From a virus: 64,000 nucleotides of DNA. The DNA lies in the IMG/VR virus record IMGVR_UViG_3300007076_000001, positions 1-64,000 of that record; one strand, 5' to 3'. Below are positions 7,790 through 63,605 of this stretch, one piece after another. Positions within the stretch are counted from its first letter, which is position 1. The number at the start of each line of letters is the position of its first letter. The position numbers were made by a program, and so were the translations under genes. The notes under the pieces were generated by a model. The model worked only from the letters and a program-made list of their open reading frames with translations. It was not told the origin of the DNA and made no database searches.

Positions 7790-8091
7790 GGTAGGCTGTT
7801 ACCTTCCCTGCTTATTCCCCCCTTAGTTTGCCTTCCTCCCCCTTGCAGGAGAGGGGCATATCAGACAACCCTATAGTAGGCCCAACTTGCCTATTCTTCC
7901 CCTCTAACCTTCCGGCCGGAACAGGAAAGGGGAAAATCCCTTCGGTATGCTAAAGGGCTTGGGCTGTCCAATCTCTTTATAGTCCTTCTATAGCCTCTAT
8001 AACTTTAGCTTGTAACATCTATAGCAATATTCTTGAGACTTAAAGTGGGGAATCACCCTCCACCTATGCAATCCTATCCAACACAGAAATC
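7790..8091. other. 302-base gap with palindromes, no convincing gene
   Basis: The gap holds a perfect 12-base palindrome TTCCGGCCGGAA (7910-7921). On the minus strand only 13-15 codon frames are open. It may be a leader or regulatory RNA region for the downstream small genes. I see no consensus promoter. Confidence 0.4.
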
Positions 8092-24728: not shown

Positions 24729-27014
24729 ATGTATTCCCCCAAAATAATCTCCCAAAAGCTCTCAACTATCCAATCTAAAATAGACTATCGCCCTAAGCCC
24801 CTCCAATTTACCCTCCGTCCATACACAGTAGCAGAATCTCGCTTCTACACTAACCACCTCTATGGGCTAGTTGAGGGGAAATATGTCCCAGGGAAGCCAA
24901 AAACCTGGCAATTTAATAGACCTCTCCTTCAAGATGAACTTAACTTTATAGAAAATGAGCGAATCCTTTGCCAAAACTCCTTCCTTTATTGCGCCACCCA
25001 CTACTACTTTGTCAAACTATCTCACACCTCCGAGAACCTATCCCTCTTTAGCCCTTGGGTATCCCAAAAGATCATCCTAGATATGTGGTCAGAGGCCGAA
25101 GAAGCCTTCTTTGCCATCATGATGATCTACCTTAAGGCCCGCCAGCTTGGGGTATCCACCGTTAATGAACTAGCAATAGCTCACCGCATCCACTTCTACA
25201 CCGAAAAGAATGCCCTAGTTGCCTCTTCCGACCCCGACAAAACCAAAAAGATGGCGGGGATGATGAAGAGGTGTTGGGATAATACCCCTCCATGGCTTAT
25301 TGGGGAATATACCATTACAGAATCTAAGGAACTATGGGCGAACTTCCCAGAAAACAAATCCTCAGTCACCTGTCAGCATGGAACAGGCCTTTCTGGGATA
25401 GCTAGAGGGGACTCCCCTGATCTTGTCCATGTCTCGGAGTTGCCAGATTTCAACAACCCCACAGCGGACGTTGACGAAGCCCTCATCAACACCATCCATG
25501 AGAACCCCACCACCTTCTTTGTTTTGGAAAGTACCGCCAAAGGGAAGACCGGAAAGGGGGAGTGGTGGTATGAGAAGTGGAAATGGGCCAAAGAGAACTA
25601 CCCCAAGAACAAAACTCGCTTCCGCCCTGTCTTCCTCCCTTGGTTTATCGGCACAGACATCTACCCAACTACCACTTGGGCACACCAATTCCTCCCTAAG
25701 CCTCTCTCTGGCCCCAAAGCGAAGTGGCAGCCCTCCAAAGTAACCGCCCTCCACGCCCTCAAATGCAAAGAGTATGTTGAGGAGAGCCCCCAACTCCAAA
25801 AATACCTTGGAGAAGGCTGGTCCCTCCCTCTAAGGCAGCAATATTTCTGGGAATTCATCCGAGCAGAGTATGAGGAGAAGGACCAACTCTTCTCCTTCTA
25901 CACAGAACTATGCGCGTCTGACCAAGAGGCCTTCCAAAGAAGCGGAAAGGGGGTTATTTCCATTGAACAAGCGGAGTATCTCCGCAATACTGCCAAAAAG
26001 CTCGCCCTTTTCCACGGTAAGCCCGCCGTTTTTGCCATTATAGGCGAAGGAGTCCAGCCTGAGCATGAACCAGACCTCGATGAAATCGACACAAGCCGCC
26101 CCTACATCAAAATTCTCTCTGATTGGGACCAATCTTCTGACCCAAAGGTCTACTACCTCATTCCCCTCCACCACCACCCTAATGTGTGGGACAAAAGGCT
26201 TTTTATATGGGAGTTTCCCTTCCCAAAAGTCAAAATAGATGGGAAGATGGGGGAGGTTGAACAAGAATACTCAACAGGGGTGGATGGATCGGAGGGGTTG
26301 GAGGGAAGGGGGGATAACTCTTCCATCCAAGTAGTCAAAAAAGGCTCCCTCTTGTGGCAAGCGGAGCAGGTAGCGGAGTTTGTTTGCTCCTCCATGATGA
26401 CAATAGAACTCCTCCCCTACACCCTCGCCATAGGTTCCTTCTTCTCCAAGCGATCAAAGGAATATGTCAATCAATGCCGCCAAACCATAGAGATTAACTT
26501 TGGGGGGAGTGGCCTTCAGCATAACATTAGGCTTGCAGGGTGGAGTAACTTCCACCGTTGGGAAGGCGCTTATGATAACCTAAAGAGAAGAAGCGCCCAT
26601 AAGATGGGGTGGGAAACTAACGCCTGGAGTCGCCCCCTCCTCATGGGTCCTGTTATAAGGGCAATAAAGGGAGGCTTCTTCAAACTCAACAGCCCTTACC
26701 TCATAGAAGAGTTGACTAACTTGCAGAGGGACCTCCACGACAACCAACGGATAGAAGCTAAGGGTTCCGACCATGACGACCGCTTCTTCTCAGCCGCCCC
26801 TGCCTTCTTCTCCCTCCATGCTTGGGAACTCTATATGATGAGCAAGGGGGATAAGTCCATCACTCAAATGTTCAAAGGCTACAAAGAAGAGGCTGTCCCA
26901 GGCGAAGGGGAATTAACCTTAGCAGAGGCTATTGCAGCCACAGAGAAGAATAGTAACTATGAGGGGAAGGTTTCTCACTATGTCTATAATAATGTCCTTC
27001 CCACTTTGGACTAA
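24729..27014 (+). CDS. terL: Large terminase subunit (761 aa)
   Basis: Two-domain DNA-packaging motor. LKARQLGVSTV (residues 135-145) is the adapted Walker A loop, DLVHVSELPDF (231-241) the Walker B strand with catalytic Glu, and FFVLESTAKG (263-272) the coupling motif. The C-terminal RNase H-like nuclease supplies KILSDWDQ (D465) and SDHDDRF (681-686). At 761 residues it is longer than most large terminases (450-650), with extra sequence between the ATPase and nuclease domains. The acidic loop with TGVDGSEG near 517 is low-complexity. Confidence 0.92.
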   Translation: MYSPKIISQKLSTIQSKIDYRPKPLQFTLRPYTVAESRFYTNHLYGLVEGKYVPGKPKTWQFNRPLLQDELNFIENERILCQNSFLYCATHYYFVKLSHTSENLSLFSPWVSQKIILDMWSEAEEAFFAIMMIYLKARQLGVSTVNELAIAHRIHFYTEKNALVASSDPDKTKKMAGMMKRCWDNTPPWLIGEYTITESKELWANFPENKSSVTCQHGTGLSGIARGDSPDLVHVSELPDFNNPTADVDEALINTIHENPTTFFVLESTAKGKTGKGEWWYEKWKWAKENYPKNKTRFRPVFLPWFIGTDIYPTTTWAHQFLPKPLSGPKAKWQPSKVTALHALKCKEYVEESPQLQKYLGEGWSLPLRQQYFWEFIRAEYEEKDQLFSFYTELCASDQEAFQRSGKGVISIEQAEYLRNTAKKLALFHGKPAVFAIIGEGVQPEHEPDLDEIDTSRPYIKILSDWDQSSDPKVYYLIPLHHHPNVWDKRLFIWEFPFPKVKIDGKMGEVEQEYSTGVDGSEGLEGRGDNSSIQVVKKGSLLWQAEQVAEFVCSSMMTIELLPYTLAIGSFFSKRSKEYVNQCRQTIEINFGGSGLQHNIRLAGWSNFHRWEGAYDNLKRRSAHKMGWETNAWSRPLLMGPVIRAIKGGFFKLNSPYLIEELTNLQRDLHDNQRIEAKGSDHDDRFFSAAPAFFSLHAWELYMMSKGDKSITQMFKGYKEEAVPGEGELTLAEAIAATEKNSNYEGKVSHYVYNNVLPTLD

Positions 27015-27047
27015 CCTGTTGACTTTCCTAAGAAAGGGGGCTACCCT

Positions 27048-27311
27048 ATGTCGATGAACCGAAGGGCTTTTATCCGAAGGACTATCTTAGGTGGAGTGGG
27101 GTTGGCTCTAACTCCTCTGGTTAAAGCACTTCCCCTCTCCAATGTAGCAACTATTAAGGAGTTTGACCATCTCTATATCCTAAGAATAGTAGGGCCTAGA
27201 ATAAGAGATGATATGTTCAAATGCACCCCTTTTCTAGCCTACCTAAGGAAGAATAGTATGAAGTGTAATGGAGGAACCTCCATCATCTTCCCTTTCAAGG
27301 AGGCCCAATGA
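27048..27311 (+). CDS. Tat-signal protein fused to a coat-protein N-arm-like segment (87 aa)
   Basis: MSMNRRAFIRRTILGGVGLA is a textbook twin-arginine signal (NRRAFIRR, hydrophobic core, then ALP). The mature part GPRIRDDMFKCTPFLAYLRK... and NGGTSIIFPF lines up with residues 16-49 of the coat protein at 32324 (RPKVIADLAF, KKSPFLAFLRA, SGGAFIQNTF). It therefore looks like a detached, exportable copy of the coat N-terminal arm. AAAGGGGG precedes the ATG and the gene is coupled to the next (ATGA). Whether it is exported or is a decay product is unknown. Confidence 0.65.
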   Translation: MSMNRRAFIRRTILGGVGLALTPLVKALPLSNVATIKEFDHLYILRIVGPRIRDDMFKCTPFLAYLRKNSMKCNGGTSIIFPFKEAQ

Positions 27312-27922
27312 TCCTCCACAACTACGAATGCTCCTCAGGCCATATCTTTGAGGCGATGACCTCTGATGCCTCCAAAAAGAAGGTCTGCAAAGTAGAGGGC
27401 TGCCGTCGAAGGGCCTCTGTGGTCTATCTCCCCCGCCGTTCCTTCGAAACAGCCAAGACCTTCACCCCCACCCTTCTCTACACCAATTCCAAAGGGGAAG
27501 TCTTCAACCCAGTCAACCCCGCCTTCCCCATCCCCAAACGCCTAGAGAAGCACCTTAAGAAGAAAGGGTTCACCCCTATCCACCTCAACACCTTCCGCGA
27601 CTACGAAAAATTCCGCCGCTCTCAAGTCATCGTCCAAAGGGACAAAGCTGACTACATCAATCATCTTGAACAAGTCGACTACAACCAATCTCTCAAAAAG
27701 GGCTTTGAGGAGCTAAAAGCAGGGGGATTCATCGAGCTAACCGACGAAAAGGGCCGAATCAAGAAGGTCAAATATCCCCCTCTCGACCAAATGCATCCCT
27801 CTATCCGTCGCCTAGCGGAGTATGCGATGGAGAGGAATGGGGACTTCCGCTTTAGGACAGAAGATACCAATCCCTTTATAGCGGCTTTTGAGAATGACGG
27901 GTTGAAGCAGGGAGGTAGATAA
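27308..27922 (+). CDS. FmdB-type zinc-ribbon protein (204 aa)
   Basis: NYECSSGHIFEAM...KVCKVEGCRRRASVVY (residues 4-41) is the FmdB/CxxC regulatory zinc-ribbon pattern, common in phage packaging modules. The remainder is basic and helical (RLEKHLKKKGFTPIHLNTFR) with an RIKKVKYPP patch. AAGGAGG precedes the ATG. Likely a morphogenesis accessory. Confidence 0.65.
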   Translation: MILHNYECSSGHIFEAMTSDASKKKVCKVEGCRRRASVVYLPRRSFETAKTFTPTLLYTNSKGEVFNPVNPAFPIPKRLEKHLKKKGFTPIHLNTFRDYEKFRRSQVIVQRDKADYINHLEQVDYNQSLKKGFEELKAGGFIELTDEKGRIKKVKYPPLDQMHPSIRRLAEYAMERNGDFRFRTEDTNPFIAAFENDGLKQGGR

Positions 27923-27924
27923 AG

Positions 27925-28170
27925 ATGGATGAGAAGCCAATTGCTCCTCCCCCCTCCACCCTTAATAAATTCTGGGGTAACTGTGAAGAGGGGGTCTTCC
28001 AATCCTCTGACTATGCTACCTATGCGGTAACTGGGGTGAAGACCAATGAAGAAGGAGAGGTTATTAAATCAGGTACTATTCGCCGGACCAAAAAGAAGGC
28101 TTATCTACGCCTCTCATCCAAGCAACGTAGGCAGATTAGAAAGCTCTTAAAGAATGGAGGCAGCCCCTAA
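27925..28170 (+). CDS. Hypothetical basic protein (81 aa)
   Basis: Begins MDEKPIAPPPSTLNKFWGNC; basic C-terminus (RRTKKKAYLRLSSKQRRQIR). GGGAGG upstream; its stop overlaps the portal start. Unknown. Confidence 0.6.
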   Translation: MDEKPIAPPPSTLNKFWGNCEEGVFQSSDYATYAVTGVKTNEEGEVIKSGTIRRTKKKAYLRLSSKQRRQIRKLLKNGGSP

Positions 28171-30401
28171 TGTCCTATATCCCCTCCCCCTCAATCCTCA
28201 ACTCCAACCCCAATGAACCCATCTACAAGGAATATGTCTGCCCTCCCTACCCTCAAGGAGGCTCAATCAAGGAGATAGAACTCCATGAGCAGAAGCTCCT
28301 TGCTTGGGTTCGTCGATGTAGAGAAGAAGGAGAGGCCTATTTCAAATCCTGCCGCGCCTATGAATCCCTTGATACAGTCCTAGACATCCTCTGTGGGAAG
28401 ATAAACCTCCAGGCCCCCGCTGAGAAGCTCTCCCTTATATTCCTCAACACCATTAAAAGAAACATAAAGGAGATGATCGCTACCCTCGCCAATATCCGTC
28501 CCTCTTGGTACTACGAAGCTAACTCCACCAAAGACCCTAATCTTCTTAAACAAGCGAGAATCCAAAATGGCCTATCTGATGATTGGTATAGAAGGAGATT
28601 CATAGATAGAGAGATAAAGAAGATGCTCCAATGGGCTCTCCCAGAAGGTACAAGTTATATAAGCCCCGTCTGGAACCCCCACCTCGATGGCCTCAACCAA
28701 GGGAACATAGAAATTAAACATTATAGGTATAATCAAGTCTATCCAACCCAACTAGGCCCTGAGTTCGACCTCCAACGTGCCTACACAGTTACCATGGAGG
28801 AGGAAACCCCCTACCTCCGAGTCTGCAAGATGTTCCCCCATAAGGCCCATCTTATCCGTCCTGACCGTGGGATGGTAAAGGTTAATAGCCTTTTCCAAAG
28901 TGGGGTAAGGGTGGTAACAGATGCAATAGGGGCAATCCGCCAAGCAGACCAAAAGAAACCTAACCAAACCCACCCCTCCCCAGTCACCGATGTCTTCTAC
29001 ACCTACGTTGATGACTTCTCCACTAACCGCCTTGACTACCCCATTCCTATGGGGGAAGGGAATAACTGGGGATATATAGTCCCTGTTAAGGGGGATAAGA
29101 TCCTCTCCCATTATACCTCCTCAGGGGAGCCAGTCCTCAAAACAGCCACCTTTGAGGACTGCTATCTCTACCCAAACCGTCGCCTTATTATCTCCACCAA
29201 CACTTGCATCCTCTACGACGGTCCTTCCTTCTGGTGGCATGGGAAGGTCCCTATTATTAAGTATAGCCCTGACAGTTGGGTTTTCTCCTATCTTGGCTTC
29301 TCAGTTGTCTCAGAGGTTCTCTCCCTTGAGAAGTCCTCCATTAACATGCGCCGCGCTGTGGAGGATGCCCTTCAACTATCCATAGACCCTCCCCTTGTGG
29401 TAGATGAAATCTCTGTGGCGAAGTCAAAGGCTGGATCCAACTCCATTCGCACCCCAGGTAAGCGCATCCGAGGGAAGCTCCAGATGGGGGACTTCATAAA
29501 GCCCATTCTCCCCCCTACCTCCTATAAGGTAGGCATGGAGCACTTCAATTACATCCAAGAAGTAGAGGACAAAATAGCCTATATAATGGGGGTACCTGAT
29601 CTCAAGGAACTCCAAAAGGCCAATCAAATCCCCTCCGCTGACTCCATAGAGAAGTTCTTCCAGCAGGCGGGGGCTATCGTAACAGATATGTCTCGCTCAA
29701 TGGACCCGGTTGTCTGCCAAATGGCGGATATGAACCGCTATTATTTCTTCCAGTTCTACGATCTAGCCAAACGTATTCGCATCCTAGGGGAAGATGGGAT
29801 AACCCCAGAAGACTACGACTTTGAGCCCGGCACCCTTATCCCCACTTCCCTCCCCTATGAACCCCTCTCAACCGATGGCACCTCCATTATCTCCTCCACC
29901 TATGTCCAGAGGGTAAAGCACCACATCAACTCCTTCTCCACTGCTATCCATCCGACTTCCCTCCATCAAATCACCAATATGGCAAGGAAGCTCCTTAGGA
30001 TGCAAGCCTCTAAGGTTAACCCCCTTCTTATCTCCGCAGAGACAATTGCTAAGGATCTGGATATTGAGAATTGGGGACACCTCGAAGGGGATACCGAGTT
30101 AGAGAAGAAGATGTCTGAGCTTAAGATAATGCAGCAGCAGCAGAACCAAGCCCTCTTTGCTCAGGGAATAGTCTCCCTTATCCTCCAGCAACTAGCCCAA
30201 CAAAATTCCCCTGAGGCTGCCCTAGGGGAAGGAGCTTCTCAACTAGCAGAAGCCCTAAAGGGGGGAATAGAAGGTGGAGGGGAAGGTGGAGCGGGAGGGG
30301 TAGCAACGGGGGGAGCCCCAGTAGGCCGTCCTCCTTCCTTCAACAATGAACCTAGACAGGTAATAAAGGATGGGGGAACTAGGTCTATAGTAGCTACCTA
30401 A
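28170..30401 (+). CDS. Portal protein (743 aa)
   Basis: Dodecameric head-tail vertex through which DNA passes. Placed between terminase and scaffold. Typical podovirus-portal segments: TIKRNIKEMIATLANIRPSWYYEA (about 93-116), MLQWALPEGTSYISPVWNPH (152-171), and a helical stem/clip region around SLEKSSINMRRAVEDALQLS and VEDKIAYIMGVPDLKELQK. The C-terminal 50 residues are Gly-rich (GGIEGGGEGGAGG). Length fits P22-like portals (about 725). Confidence 0.85.
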   Translation: MSYIPSPSILNSNPNEPIYKEYVCPPYPQGGSIKEIELHEQKLLAWVRRCREEGEAYFKSCRAYESLDTVLDILCGKINLQAPAEKLSLIFLNTIKRNIKEMIATLANIRPSWYYEANSTKDPNLLKQARIQNGLSDDWYRRRFIDREIKKMLQWALPEGTSYISPVWNPHLDGLNQGNIEIKHYRYNQVYPTQLGPEFDLQRAYTVTMEEETPYLRVCKMFPHKAHLIRPDRGMVKVNSLFQSGVRVVTDAIGAIRQADQKKPNQTHPSPVTDVFYTYVDDFSTNRLDYPIPMGEGNNWGYIVPVKGDKILSHYTSSGEPVLKTATFEDCYLYPNRRLIISTNTCILYDGPSFWWHGKVPIIKYSPDSWVFSYLGFSVVSEVLSLEKSSINMRRAVEDALQLSIDPPLVVDEISVAKSKAGSNSIRTPGKRIRGKLQMGDFIKPILPPTSYKVGMEHFNYIQEVEDKIAYIMGVPDLKELQKANQIPSADSIEKFFQQAGAIVTDMSRSMDPVVCQMADMNRYYFFQFYDLAKRIRILGEDGITPEDYDFEPGTLIPTSLPYEPLSTDGTSIISSTYVQRVKHHINSFSTAIHPTSLHQITNMARKLLRMQASKVNPLLISAETIAKDLDIENWGHLEGDTELEKKMSELKIMQQQQNQALFAQGIVSLILQQLAQQNSPEAALGEGASQLAEALKGGIEGGGEGGAGGVATGGAPVGRPPSFNNEPRQVIKDGGTRSIVAT

Positions 30402-32323: not shown

Positions 32324-33451
32324 ATGGCAAACCTGTTGGACGAATTAAATGCTACCACTCTGAAGGTAATTAGGCCAAAGGTTATAGCAGACTTGGCATT
32401 CAAAAAGAAGTCTCCCTTCCTGGCCTTCCTCAGAGCTCACGCCCTCCCACACTCAGGGGGTGCTTTCATCCAGAATACCTTCGCCTACGCAAAAAGCATA
32501 GGTGGGAGCTACGCGAAGGGTGATACCTTCGACATGAACCGGGTACAGCTTCTCGACGCGACGAAGTTCGATGTCCGCTACTATGAGCAGAATGATACCC
32601 AGTTTGAGGAAGACATCGACGTGGAGAACAAAGGTGAGGCGGCGGTTTTCTCCATCATAACCGCCCACCAAGAGGTCCTCATGCTTACCATGAATGAGAA
32701 CCTCGCCATTGAGCTTAACCGCCATGGTCAGCCCTCCTCCACCACCGTTTTGGATAGTCGCACCACCTCTATCAATGGCATCTCTGAGATGTATAACGAT
32801 GGGGTGACAAACTCTTGGGATGGTAATGTCTTCCCTCTCTATGGTCAGCAAACCCGCAATGGCACCATAGGAGCCGCCCTTAACTCAGTTCCCTTCTTCT
32901 TTGGGGACTCCACGGGGGCAGCCGGGCCAGTTACCTATGCTAACCTCCTTGAGCAATACCTTGATGCCTCTGGAGGTGATTGGTCGCCTAATATCTGCCG
33001 GGGTAACAAGGCAGTCTTCGCCTACATTATGGAAAGGCTACAACCTCAGCAAAGGTTTGGTTCCGAAAAGAACTTCATTTGGGGTGGGGAAAGCTTCTCC
33101 CTTATGGGAATGGAGTTCATGCGGGATGAGTATTGCCCCTCTAGTCGCTTTGGCATCAACGACCCCCGCACAGGTAACTACCTTACCTCTACCTTTACCT
33201 CAGCAGCCACCCCCGCTGCTGCCTCAAACCTCCCCGCCTCCACCACCATCACGGTAGGGGAGACGGTCTTCATGGAGAACACCAAGACCTTCCAGATGCA
33301 CCTTTCGGACTCTGAGAGATTCCGCTTCGGGTGGACGGGGTATAAGGAGGCTCAGAACTCGACCATCGTGGCAGGGCAACTCCTTGTGGCCCTCAACGTC
33401 CTCTGCCAATACCCATGGGCGAATAAGCAGGGGTATGGGATTAATTCCTAA
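32324..33451 (+). CDS. Major capsid (coat) protein, P22-like (375 aa)
   Basis: HK97-fold coat. The N-arm RPKVIADLAFKKKSPFLAFL, then a GGAFIQNTFAYAKS strand, matches the start of podovirus coat proteins. NKAVFAYIMERLQPQQRF, GMEFMRDEYCPSSRFGI and TKTFQMHLSDSERFRFG are typical later segments. Two in-tandem GGAG sites precede the ATG, and a stable hairpin follows the gene, both consistent with high expression. Confidence 0.85.
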   Translation: MANLLDELNATTLKVIRPKVIADLAFKKKSPFLAFLRAHALPHSGGAFIQNTFAYAKSIGGSYAKGDTFDMNRVQLLDATKFDVRYYEQNDTQFEEDIDVENKGEAAVFSIITAHQEVLMLTMNENLAIELNRHGQPSSTTVLDSRTTSINGISEMYNDGVTNSWDGNVFPLYGQQTRNGTIGAALNSVPFFFGDSTGAAGPVTYANLLEQYLDASGGDWSPNICRGNKAVFAYIMERLQPQQRFGSEKNFIWGGESFSLMGMEFMRDEYCPSSRFGINDPRTGNYLTSTFTSAATPAAASNLPASTTITVGETVFMENTKTFQMHLSDSERFRFGWTGYKEAQNSTIVAGQLLVALNVLCQYPWANKQGYGINS

Positions 33452-63300: not shown

Positions 63301-63355
63301 TATCCTCAAGGGGGCAGCCTTGACATTCTTTAGGCTTTTGAATGAATTGAGGCAT
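60344..63355 (-). CDS. DNA polymerase A fused to UDG-like and exonuclease domains (1003 aa)
   Basis: Residues 5-185 are a family-4-type uracil-DNA glycosylase module: CxxC (C11, C14), TGESPGYNEILEG (37-49), CMCRPP (83-88), C105, VPTFHPSYI (161-169). The four cysteines fit a 4Fe-4S cluster. Residues 221-360 are a 3'-5' exonuclease: IDIET (D227, E229), HNFWDFD (286-292), a YxxxD near 349-353. Residues 487-509 insert a CxxC...CxxC zinc module. The polymerase has motif A with D677 (LDYKSYHALM), motif B R743/K748 and motif C HDD (934-936, usually HDE). It is the replicative polymerase. Confidence 0.9.
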   Translation of the reverse strand: MPQFIQKPKECQGCPLEDIGEGFILPEGNGSTPLLLTGESPGYNEILEGLPFRPSAQAGSILHRVIREKAKHTRGQLTFNNLCMCRPPQDHLLGMGWEYEAVNHCKVHFDRVVNKFKPKVILALGAVPFKHLTGLEGHNLNINMVRGYVFASSRYPSTLVVPTFHPSYIRRGNAHLMGILLFDYLKAFGIAQGTSPEFIMNPMEDKSLKYILSPSYEAAVGLWQHLKGNPLTLVSIDIETKESIGKEEDEIDDYGEYIKQVQLSIAPSSGIAFPWEEPFISIFKKIMSLPNPKVGHNFWDFDRPILQKAGVVINGRVDDTMWMMHHYQSDIPIGLQATASYFNFPFPWKHLSGQSLAFYGIADTDAPLRIMEHLPKRLKDRDLWRGYEELVYKVKPILIKTQDRGYPVNQKKQEVFKEAIHLRKGEIEGELKERVSSQFNRYHPEEGYKNVPADLKVQLILAATKMGVGVETLFTNPLEEVAEGAGLGVVGFKQGSCGFCRQNGEIKGSDGVFMVCPACQGRGFRTVRRYCKVIPFNPNSPPQVSDLIKYKKHEKIAAKLAINIAKESRSKIDLHDFEDEEKDLSTSKGVLKGLAIKTGDKVYSLMVEYRELTKMEGSFLGGGKNGKKGWKPGEDGRVHTTFTFRPPTVQTSSRDPNIQQGPVHSTLAIKFNETIEAKEGHVLTKLDYKSYHALMLGFLAEDPDYIRLARLDIHSYVTAHMVSLPEADVAIGWEDEKLRGWLKEVKGAYKSLRDDQAKHAILGIGFGLSEEGCYERYKEDFNPKMEEVLKGWGKKRSNPLEVDLRTGMARWQVEAEAQGKKKVKKLYELLRRLFPRVFKFQDKIIALADNQNYIDIPFGFRRWFWAAGEPRYDKWGNVLSIKKGEQAQQAMAYPVAANAFCHMRENLRILEDGGEVLSMIGGSLQPYLSTPGLLDKARLVNMVHDDFRFEPREEEWEEVMKKVLTVMRRRSKVLVNWTMPEGFHCEVDIKVGHNLAEMKEVSL

Positions 63356-63605
63356 TGATTATCATCCTTCCTAGAATTTTCCCCTCCAATCTAAACTCTG
63401 CTACCTCCCCATCAAACTCCCCCATCCTGACATAAGCTCTATGGAAGGCTCGATAGTGGGCAACATCTTTGTCTAGGGCTAAGATAGACCTATAGGTTTT
63501 TGGGTCAGCTACTATAAGGTCAGGAGCTATATTCCCAAGGCAGCATTCTGTGAAGGCCTCTCGGAGATTTGCATAGCTGAACTCACTCACTATCTTCTCT
63601 ATCAT
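63330..63605 (-). CDS. Hypothetical protein (91 aa)
   Basis: Begins MIEKIVSEFSYANLREAFTE; contains APDLIVADPKTYRSILALD and a beta-rich end. GGAGGG upstream; overlaps the polymerase start by 26 bases. The 'LIVADPKTY' stretch resembles a loop seen in HK97-fold proteins, too short to rely on. Confidence 0.55.
   Translation of the reverse strand: MIEKIVSEFSYANLREAFTECCLGNIAPDLIVADPKTYRSILALDKDVAHYRAFHRAYVRMGEFDGEVAEFRLEGKILGRMIINASIHSKA

Follow-up and report, generated by a model that had tools for sequence, protein, structure and literature searches.

Our data give good support to the existence of a recurrent class of phage genes that join a Tat-type leader to one or more pieces of the major capsid protein (MCP) of the phage itself. 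One member, here named Tat87, lies in the window, that is, the whole stretch of 64,000 nucleotides analysed here, from an uncultured virus record of 69,718 bases. It is well supported as a real, translated-looking phage gene of this recurrent class. The features of the window are the following.

24729..27014, + strand: terminase large subunit (TerL), directly upstream of Tat87 (PHROG 5989)
27030..27040, + strand: Shine-Dalgarno sequence AAGAAAGGGGG, 7 bases 5' of the Tat87 ATG, rated good from the sequence
27048..27311, + strand: Tat87, 87-aa protein with a Tat-type leader and a copy of the MCP N-arm (open reading frame, MCP match)
27048..27137, + strand: putative Tat-type leader of Tat87, MSMNRRAFIRRTILGGVGLALTPLVKALPL (RRxF motif, hydrophobic core)
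27180..27308, + strand: copy of the capsid N-arm and first E-loop strand, Tat87 residues 45-87 (alignment to MCP 12-57)
27308..27922, + strand: gene directly downstream of Tat87, with a zinc-ribbon-like N-terminus, its start overlapping the Tat87 stop
28170..30401, + strand: portal protein (PHROG 156, E 9.5e-11)
32324..33451, + strand: MCP, HK97 fold (NF033394, PHROG 9953, AF2 and Foldseek)
32357..32494, + strand: MCP residues 12-57, the region matched by the Tat87 copy (alignment; N-arm and E-loop by model)
63330..63605, - strand: possible second gene for a capsid piece (91 aa, leaderless), resembling MCP 200-235 (MCP profile)

The open reading frame (ORF) of the initial annotation is present, and the gene run in this phage is TerL, Tat87, P204, P81 and portal. 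The stop codon of Tat87 and the start codon of the following gene share an ATGA at 27308, and Tat87 is thus taken as part of a TerL-to-portal operon. A motif scan of the N-terminus MSMNRRAFIRRTILGGVGLALTP found an RRxF(L/I) motif and a hydrophobic core; the leader carries RRAFIRR (two RR pairs), a core rich in glycine, and a lysine after the core. Tat87 reached the curated cut-off of neither PF10518 nor TIGR01409 (12.5 bits for the leader, under the 16.7 of the latter), and the relative L026 passes that of TIGR01409 (21.2 bits). Because Tat87 itself stays below the cut-off, its assignment is based on the motif and on the better-scoring relatives, and the leader would be of the Tat type. Also, the two linkers that follow the core in the class, WPFRV[YF]SFP and DPE[KR]LLWVPG, are missing from Tat87, which shows TPLVKALPLSN there, with a loose resemblance only; its membership is therefore one of architecture, not of linker. 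The AlphaFold model of Tat87 alone had a pLDDT of 45 and was uninformative.

The MCP of this phage is, as judged from its predicted structure, a genuine HK97-fold capsid protein. It matched PHROG 9953 (major head protein), its AlphaFold model (pLDDT 72) gave phage capsids and related HK97-fold shells as top Foldseek matches (E to 1e-11), and it scored 58.9 bits against NCBIfam NF033394, below the cut-off of 80. Given this fold, the Tat87 copy spans, in the model, the helices of the N-arm (20-24 and 31-39) together with the first strand of the E-loop (48-54). MCP 12-57 is all that is represented in Tat87, which does not hold the full N-arm, E-loop, P- and A-domains.

The initial annotation had described Tat87 as a Tat-signal peptide joined to a copied coat N-arm. 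Both halves are borne out, the first by the motif and the second by the alignment of Tat87 residues 45-87 with MCP 12-57, for which the Smith-Waterman score was 62 (BLOSUM62, 11/1; z = 8.6-9.3). In the comparison with shuffled sequences suggested there, the alignment stood well clear of chance: none of 20,000 shuffles came up to the real score. Over the whole 64 kb, the MCP was the second-best frame behind the Tat87 ORF itself (65, next 40); it ranked first of 28 own-genome proteins for the tail (z 9.8), and tblastn of Tat87 in its own genome returned, apart from Tat87, only the MCP (E 4.5e-4). MCPs of other phages in this clade did as well as the own one or better (L105, 70; L006, 63; L104, 61; own MCP, 62), with z of 7-11 over five own-clade MCPs, and those of more distant clades gave no comparable score, which is the pattern predicted by true homology. 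The origin of the Tat87 piece by duplication from a same-clade MCP is well supported.

Using profiles of the portal and TerL, we gathered about 170 IMG/VR loci that are related or bear TerL. Within the nearest clade (L006, L101-L105, L107 and L108), Tat87 was not found between TerL and portal; several of these loci have a zinc-ribbon-like gene in that gap. Tat87 is therefore considered an accessory gene. Cys-pair N-termini like that of the gene at 27308-27922 were observed in genes after TerL in L101, L102, L104 and L108. The MCP, TerL and portal show a distant kinship (28-30% identity) to those of the Acidobacteriota phages Tunturi 1 and 2, which have no Tat87-like gene at the corresponding place. 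Tunturiibacter phages, the cultured phages closest to this one, show none between TerL and portal. None of the cultured phages in the collection gave a version of Tat87, and a tblastn search of the phage collection with Tat87, L083 and L042 gave no match. Neither Tat87 nor the MCP, used as a single-protein query on viral contigs, returned anything, and the MCP alignment did not either. In L020-L022, L046, L049 and L122, TerL is seemingly split in two ORFs corresponding to its ATPase and nuclease parts.

Among more distant relatives, small Tat-leader ORFs occur again in or near the TerL-portal gap: inside it in L042 (with a homologue upstream of TerL in L054), directly upstream of TerL in L083 and L084, and in or near it in L026, L094, L034 and L035. 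The last four constitute a Tat-leader family with a Cys-rich tail (CGTRFRWYLG..C.CP.C) in the TerL-portal slot (L026 4803-5126, L094 8526-8867, L034, L035). The absence from relatives that the initial annotation had named as an argument against its reading was in part observed: the nearest relatives lack Tat87 in their TerL-portal gap, but the architecture recurs elsewhere.

DNA patterns built from the two conserved linkers, which select on the leader alone and sample just part of the class, retrieved 52 contig stretches with small Tat-leader proteins, mostly of 66-183 aa, from diverse and unrelated uncultured phages. The evidence for the class comes mostly from metagenomic contigs, most of them read in pieces, with MCPs located by family profiles. 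The genes are usually on the same strand as the MCP and in the packaging region, about 4-9 kb upstream of it in many records. Tat models matched 17-21 of 51 members. PHROG 283 (major head protein) was the only structural-annotation family matched by several of these 51, and PHROGs and NCBIfam each independently gave capsid families for several members. The same patterns on genome contigs gave 0 matches for DPE..LLWVPG and 2 for WPFRV, one class-like and without a leader in an Acidobacteria MAG, the other only a short frame in a Saprospiraceae MAG. At the end of the Acidobacteria MAG stretch (L327, near 7819-8000), the linker WPFRVYSFPSEL and a leaderless capsid-like tail directly follow a possible TIR-like ORF, which offers a lead to the host.

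Whether the tails are MCP pieces was assessed by a rank test, each tail being compared with every ORF of 180 aa or more in its own genome, ordered by shuffle z-score. The MCP was the top match for 19 of 37 tails (1.3 expected). Six of these cases did not come from the leader patterns (the window, G003x, G025x, G024x, G024y and G015x); for the leader-selected tails alone, a set that includes a few close relatives and in which the top entry of L208 is a partial copy of the same MCP, the MCP came first in 13/31 (about 1 expected), with z ≥ 4.5 in 11/31. As controls, 128 same-strand leaderless small ORFs from the same genomes placed the MCP first twice (3.9 expected), and none reached z ≥ 4.5. In the reverse direction, a profile of 16 P22-type MCPs searched against 13,423 ORFs found mostly Tat-leader genes once MCPs and truncated MCPs were set aside, three of them previously unknown (G025, and G024 twice). 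The only matches of G025 (L323:15997-16281:-) were annotated capsid proteins, found in 44 records of cultured or deposited phages at 33-54% identity (E to 1e-11). About half or more of the class tails have no clear MCP match, and no convincing similarity to the MCP was found for the Cys-rich tails of L026/L094 and the L020-L024 tail. The impression by eye of an N-arm copy in L083/L084 proved weak (57 of 3,000 shuffles as high, MCP rank 2). In L096, a Tat-like leader is followed by a stretch of the TerL nuclease domain (1439-2218, E about 1e-18 to TerL proteins); this contig begins close upstream, and a split TerL is an alternative reading.

The copied pieces measure about 20-70 MCP residues and derive most often from the N-arm, but also from about 200-306 and 350-407. 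The clearest are about 33-65% identical to the own MCP; being clade-matched yet diverged, they are not fresh duplications. The order of pieces may be swapped, as in the L042 tail (spine helix 115-138, then N-arm 5-29) and in L212/L213 (370-386, then 311-329). An initial impression of reversed MCP order in all composite tails did not hold, since a stricter test gave three reversed cases (two lineages) and two weak forward ones. Strong purifying selection was seen for one pair, the L181/L192 tails (dN 0.037, dS 0.376, dN/dS about 0.1); other pairs were saturated, too close, or near neutral (L178b/L205b). Some genomes carry two or three such genes (G001, G003, G024, G027, G047). Another possibility put forward initially for Tat87, a duplicated fragment, holds as to its origin; as a one-off event it is insufficient, because the same architecture is found in many phages with other coat pieces.

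Capsid pieces without a leader were also observed. G034, G035 and G041 (L293:11401-11688 -, L294:14837-15121 +, L306:10428-10715 +) are near-identical leaderless ORFs of 94-95 aa that copy the C-terminal part of their own MCP. In L062 (5853-6185), a small leaderless ORF has an in-frame Met from which it begins like the own MCP N-terminus (MANPIYDEISVRTIEYLRNEVVFN) and later diverges. In the window, the gene at 63330-63605 matched the MCP profile with an E-value of 0.014 in 23,536 ORFs, and it was closer to the L105 MCP (z 6.5, 0/2,000 shuffles) than to its own (z 2.7). The existence of such genes suggests that the capsid piece, and not the leader alone, matters.

As to function, the reading that we favour, tentatively and from sequence, is a membrane-tethered or exported capsid mimic that would compete for an MCP-binding partner. 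The leader would bring the protein to the inner membrane, either by Tat export or as an uncleaved anchor parked there, and the capsid-like tail would then compete with the real MCP for a partner recognising MCP sequence; the most plausible candidates are a capsid sensor of the host and some other factor directed against capsids. Such a host partner is favoured because capsid sensors are known (PMC9712102, PMC11312562) and because the gene is patchy and variable, with pieces that differ between lineages. The variety of pieces and the presence of two or three genes per phage are expected if the partner sees different capsid sites in each host. The chimera itself, its recurrence, the clade match to the MCP and the purifying selection in one pair also speak for mimicry. 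The weak link is export: the MCP is cytoplasmic and not normally periplasmic, and an exported protein makes a poor cytoplasmic decoy. The fit would be better for an uncleaved anchor on the cytoplasmic side, though the Tat motif would then be unneeded. The periplasmic decoy, which was among the options first listed for Tat87, is accordingly a possible role as far as the decoy is concerned, with a putative periplasmic location. Also against mimicry are the leader score below the Tat cut-off here, the patchy presence of the gene, and the many tails without a clear MCP match, some being TerL-like (L096) or of the Cys-rich family (L026, L094). Moreover, the Thoeris system of staphylococci reportedly senses the MCP as a hexamer (PMC11312562), and by analogy a short or permuted piece may not imitate a hexamer.

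A second explanation, possible though in our opinion rather unlikely, is gene birth by recombination: a Tat-leader gene of the packaging module would repeatedly capture fragments of neighbouring late genes, above all of the MCP, and the tail would be mostly filler or re-used for another periplasmic task, the resemblance to the MCP reflecting ancestry only. Pieces drawn from all over the MCP, the permuted order in L212/L213 and L042, as recombination between tandem copies would give, the TerL nuclease in place of MCP in the L096 tail, and the patchy presence among relatives agree with it. However, the L181/L192 tail is under purifying selection, the MCP is far ahead of late genes whose length is comparable or greater, and leaderless MCP-piece genes (G034, G035, G041) exist too.

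We regard as unlikely that these proteins are membrane-tethered factors of capsid assembly or nucleation, in which the leader would act as an inner-membrane anchor and the tail would join the first MCP capsomers, the portal or a scaffold, with head formation beginning at the membrane beside the portal. The place of Tat87 between TerL and portal, the same-strand position upstream of the MCP in many records and, on the segment map, the N-terminal arm as the piece copied most often would suit this role, but other members copy middle, C-terminal or permuted pieces. As copied pieces vary and their order is sometimes permuted, an assembly factor is less likely; also, the gene is missing from most relatives and is thus not needed for assembly.

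Still less probable to us is a weapon against competing phages, the capsid piece poisoning the capsid assembly of a co-infecting relative (dominant-negative superinfection exclusion). Blockers of virion assembly are known (Tab, PMC10884400), the genes are multi-copy and patchy as other exclusion genes are, and tails match the clade MCP, sometimes that of another phage better (L105 70 vs own 62); on the other hand, the MCP of the carrier would also be threatened, and a Tat leader would take the product out of the cytoplasm. Finally, chance similarity in an ordinary secreted protein is hardly tenable: profile E-values of Tat87 in pooled ORF sets are merely about 1e-2 to 1e-4, but it is contradicted by the pairwise and shuffle tests, by the clade-specific match and by the recurrence seen against matched controls, and for the tails in general the control-ORF comparison rules it out.

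Returning to capsid mimicry, a bolder and more doubtful extension is that many uncultured phages hold a modular Tat-leader arsenal that would show pieces of their own MCP at or beyond the inner membrane, against capsid-recognising host immunity (or rival phages), with a rapid turnover of pieces from lineage to lineage that follows the shifts in the recognised capsid site. If the tails are capsid mimics, a membrane-associated capsid-recognising partner is implied, and capsid sensing in uncultured soil bacteria becomes testable. Should they be no more than products of recombination, they would still constitute a striking natural record of coat-gene fragments recycled into new genes.

We found the combination of a Tat leader and a piece of the own coat described nowhere in the PHROGs, Pfam, NCBIfam and open-access papers checked: the three family collections gave no counterpart of the class, and the open-access literature, in a search that left subscription papers and preprints largely outside, gave no report of Tat-capsid chimeras. 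With Tat signal-peptide proteins (TIGR01409, PF10518), the class shares the RRxFL motif, a hydrophobic core free of acidic residues and a basic residue behind it. Among known Tat cargoes, folded enzymes and cofactor proteins of cells predominate, whereas the cargo here is a short viral coat piece. The class also differs from Tat proteins by the conserved linkers after the core in most members (WPFRVYSFP, DPERLLWVPG) and by the lack of a clear AxA cleavage site. With HK97-fold MCPs (NF033394 capsid_maj_Podo; PF11651 P22 coat; PHROG 283), the tail is homologous over short, clade-matched parts; from about 20-70 residues, sometimes permuted, no capsid subunit can fold. Capsid-sensing defences exist, such as CapRel (PMC9712102) and Thoeris (PMC11312562), and the likeness of the Tat87 class to these systems is by analogy only. 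Similarly, DSAD1 is a phage protein that counters DSR2, a sensor of the tail tube (PMC11087589). The logic possibly shared with this pair, a phage protein set against a structural-protein sensor, is one of analogy. To our knowledge, Sid and Tab are not MCP fragments and have no Tat leader, and on these grounds they are set apart from the class. Nevertheless, Sid of the satellite P4 (PDB 7jw1) and Tab (PMC10884400) are small proteins that act on virion assembly, as members of the class possibly do.
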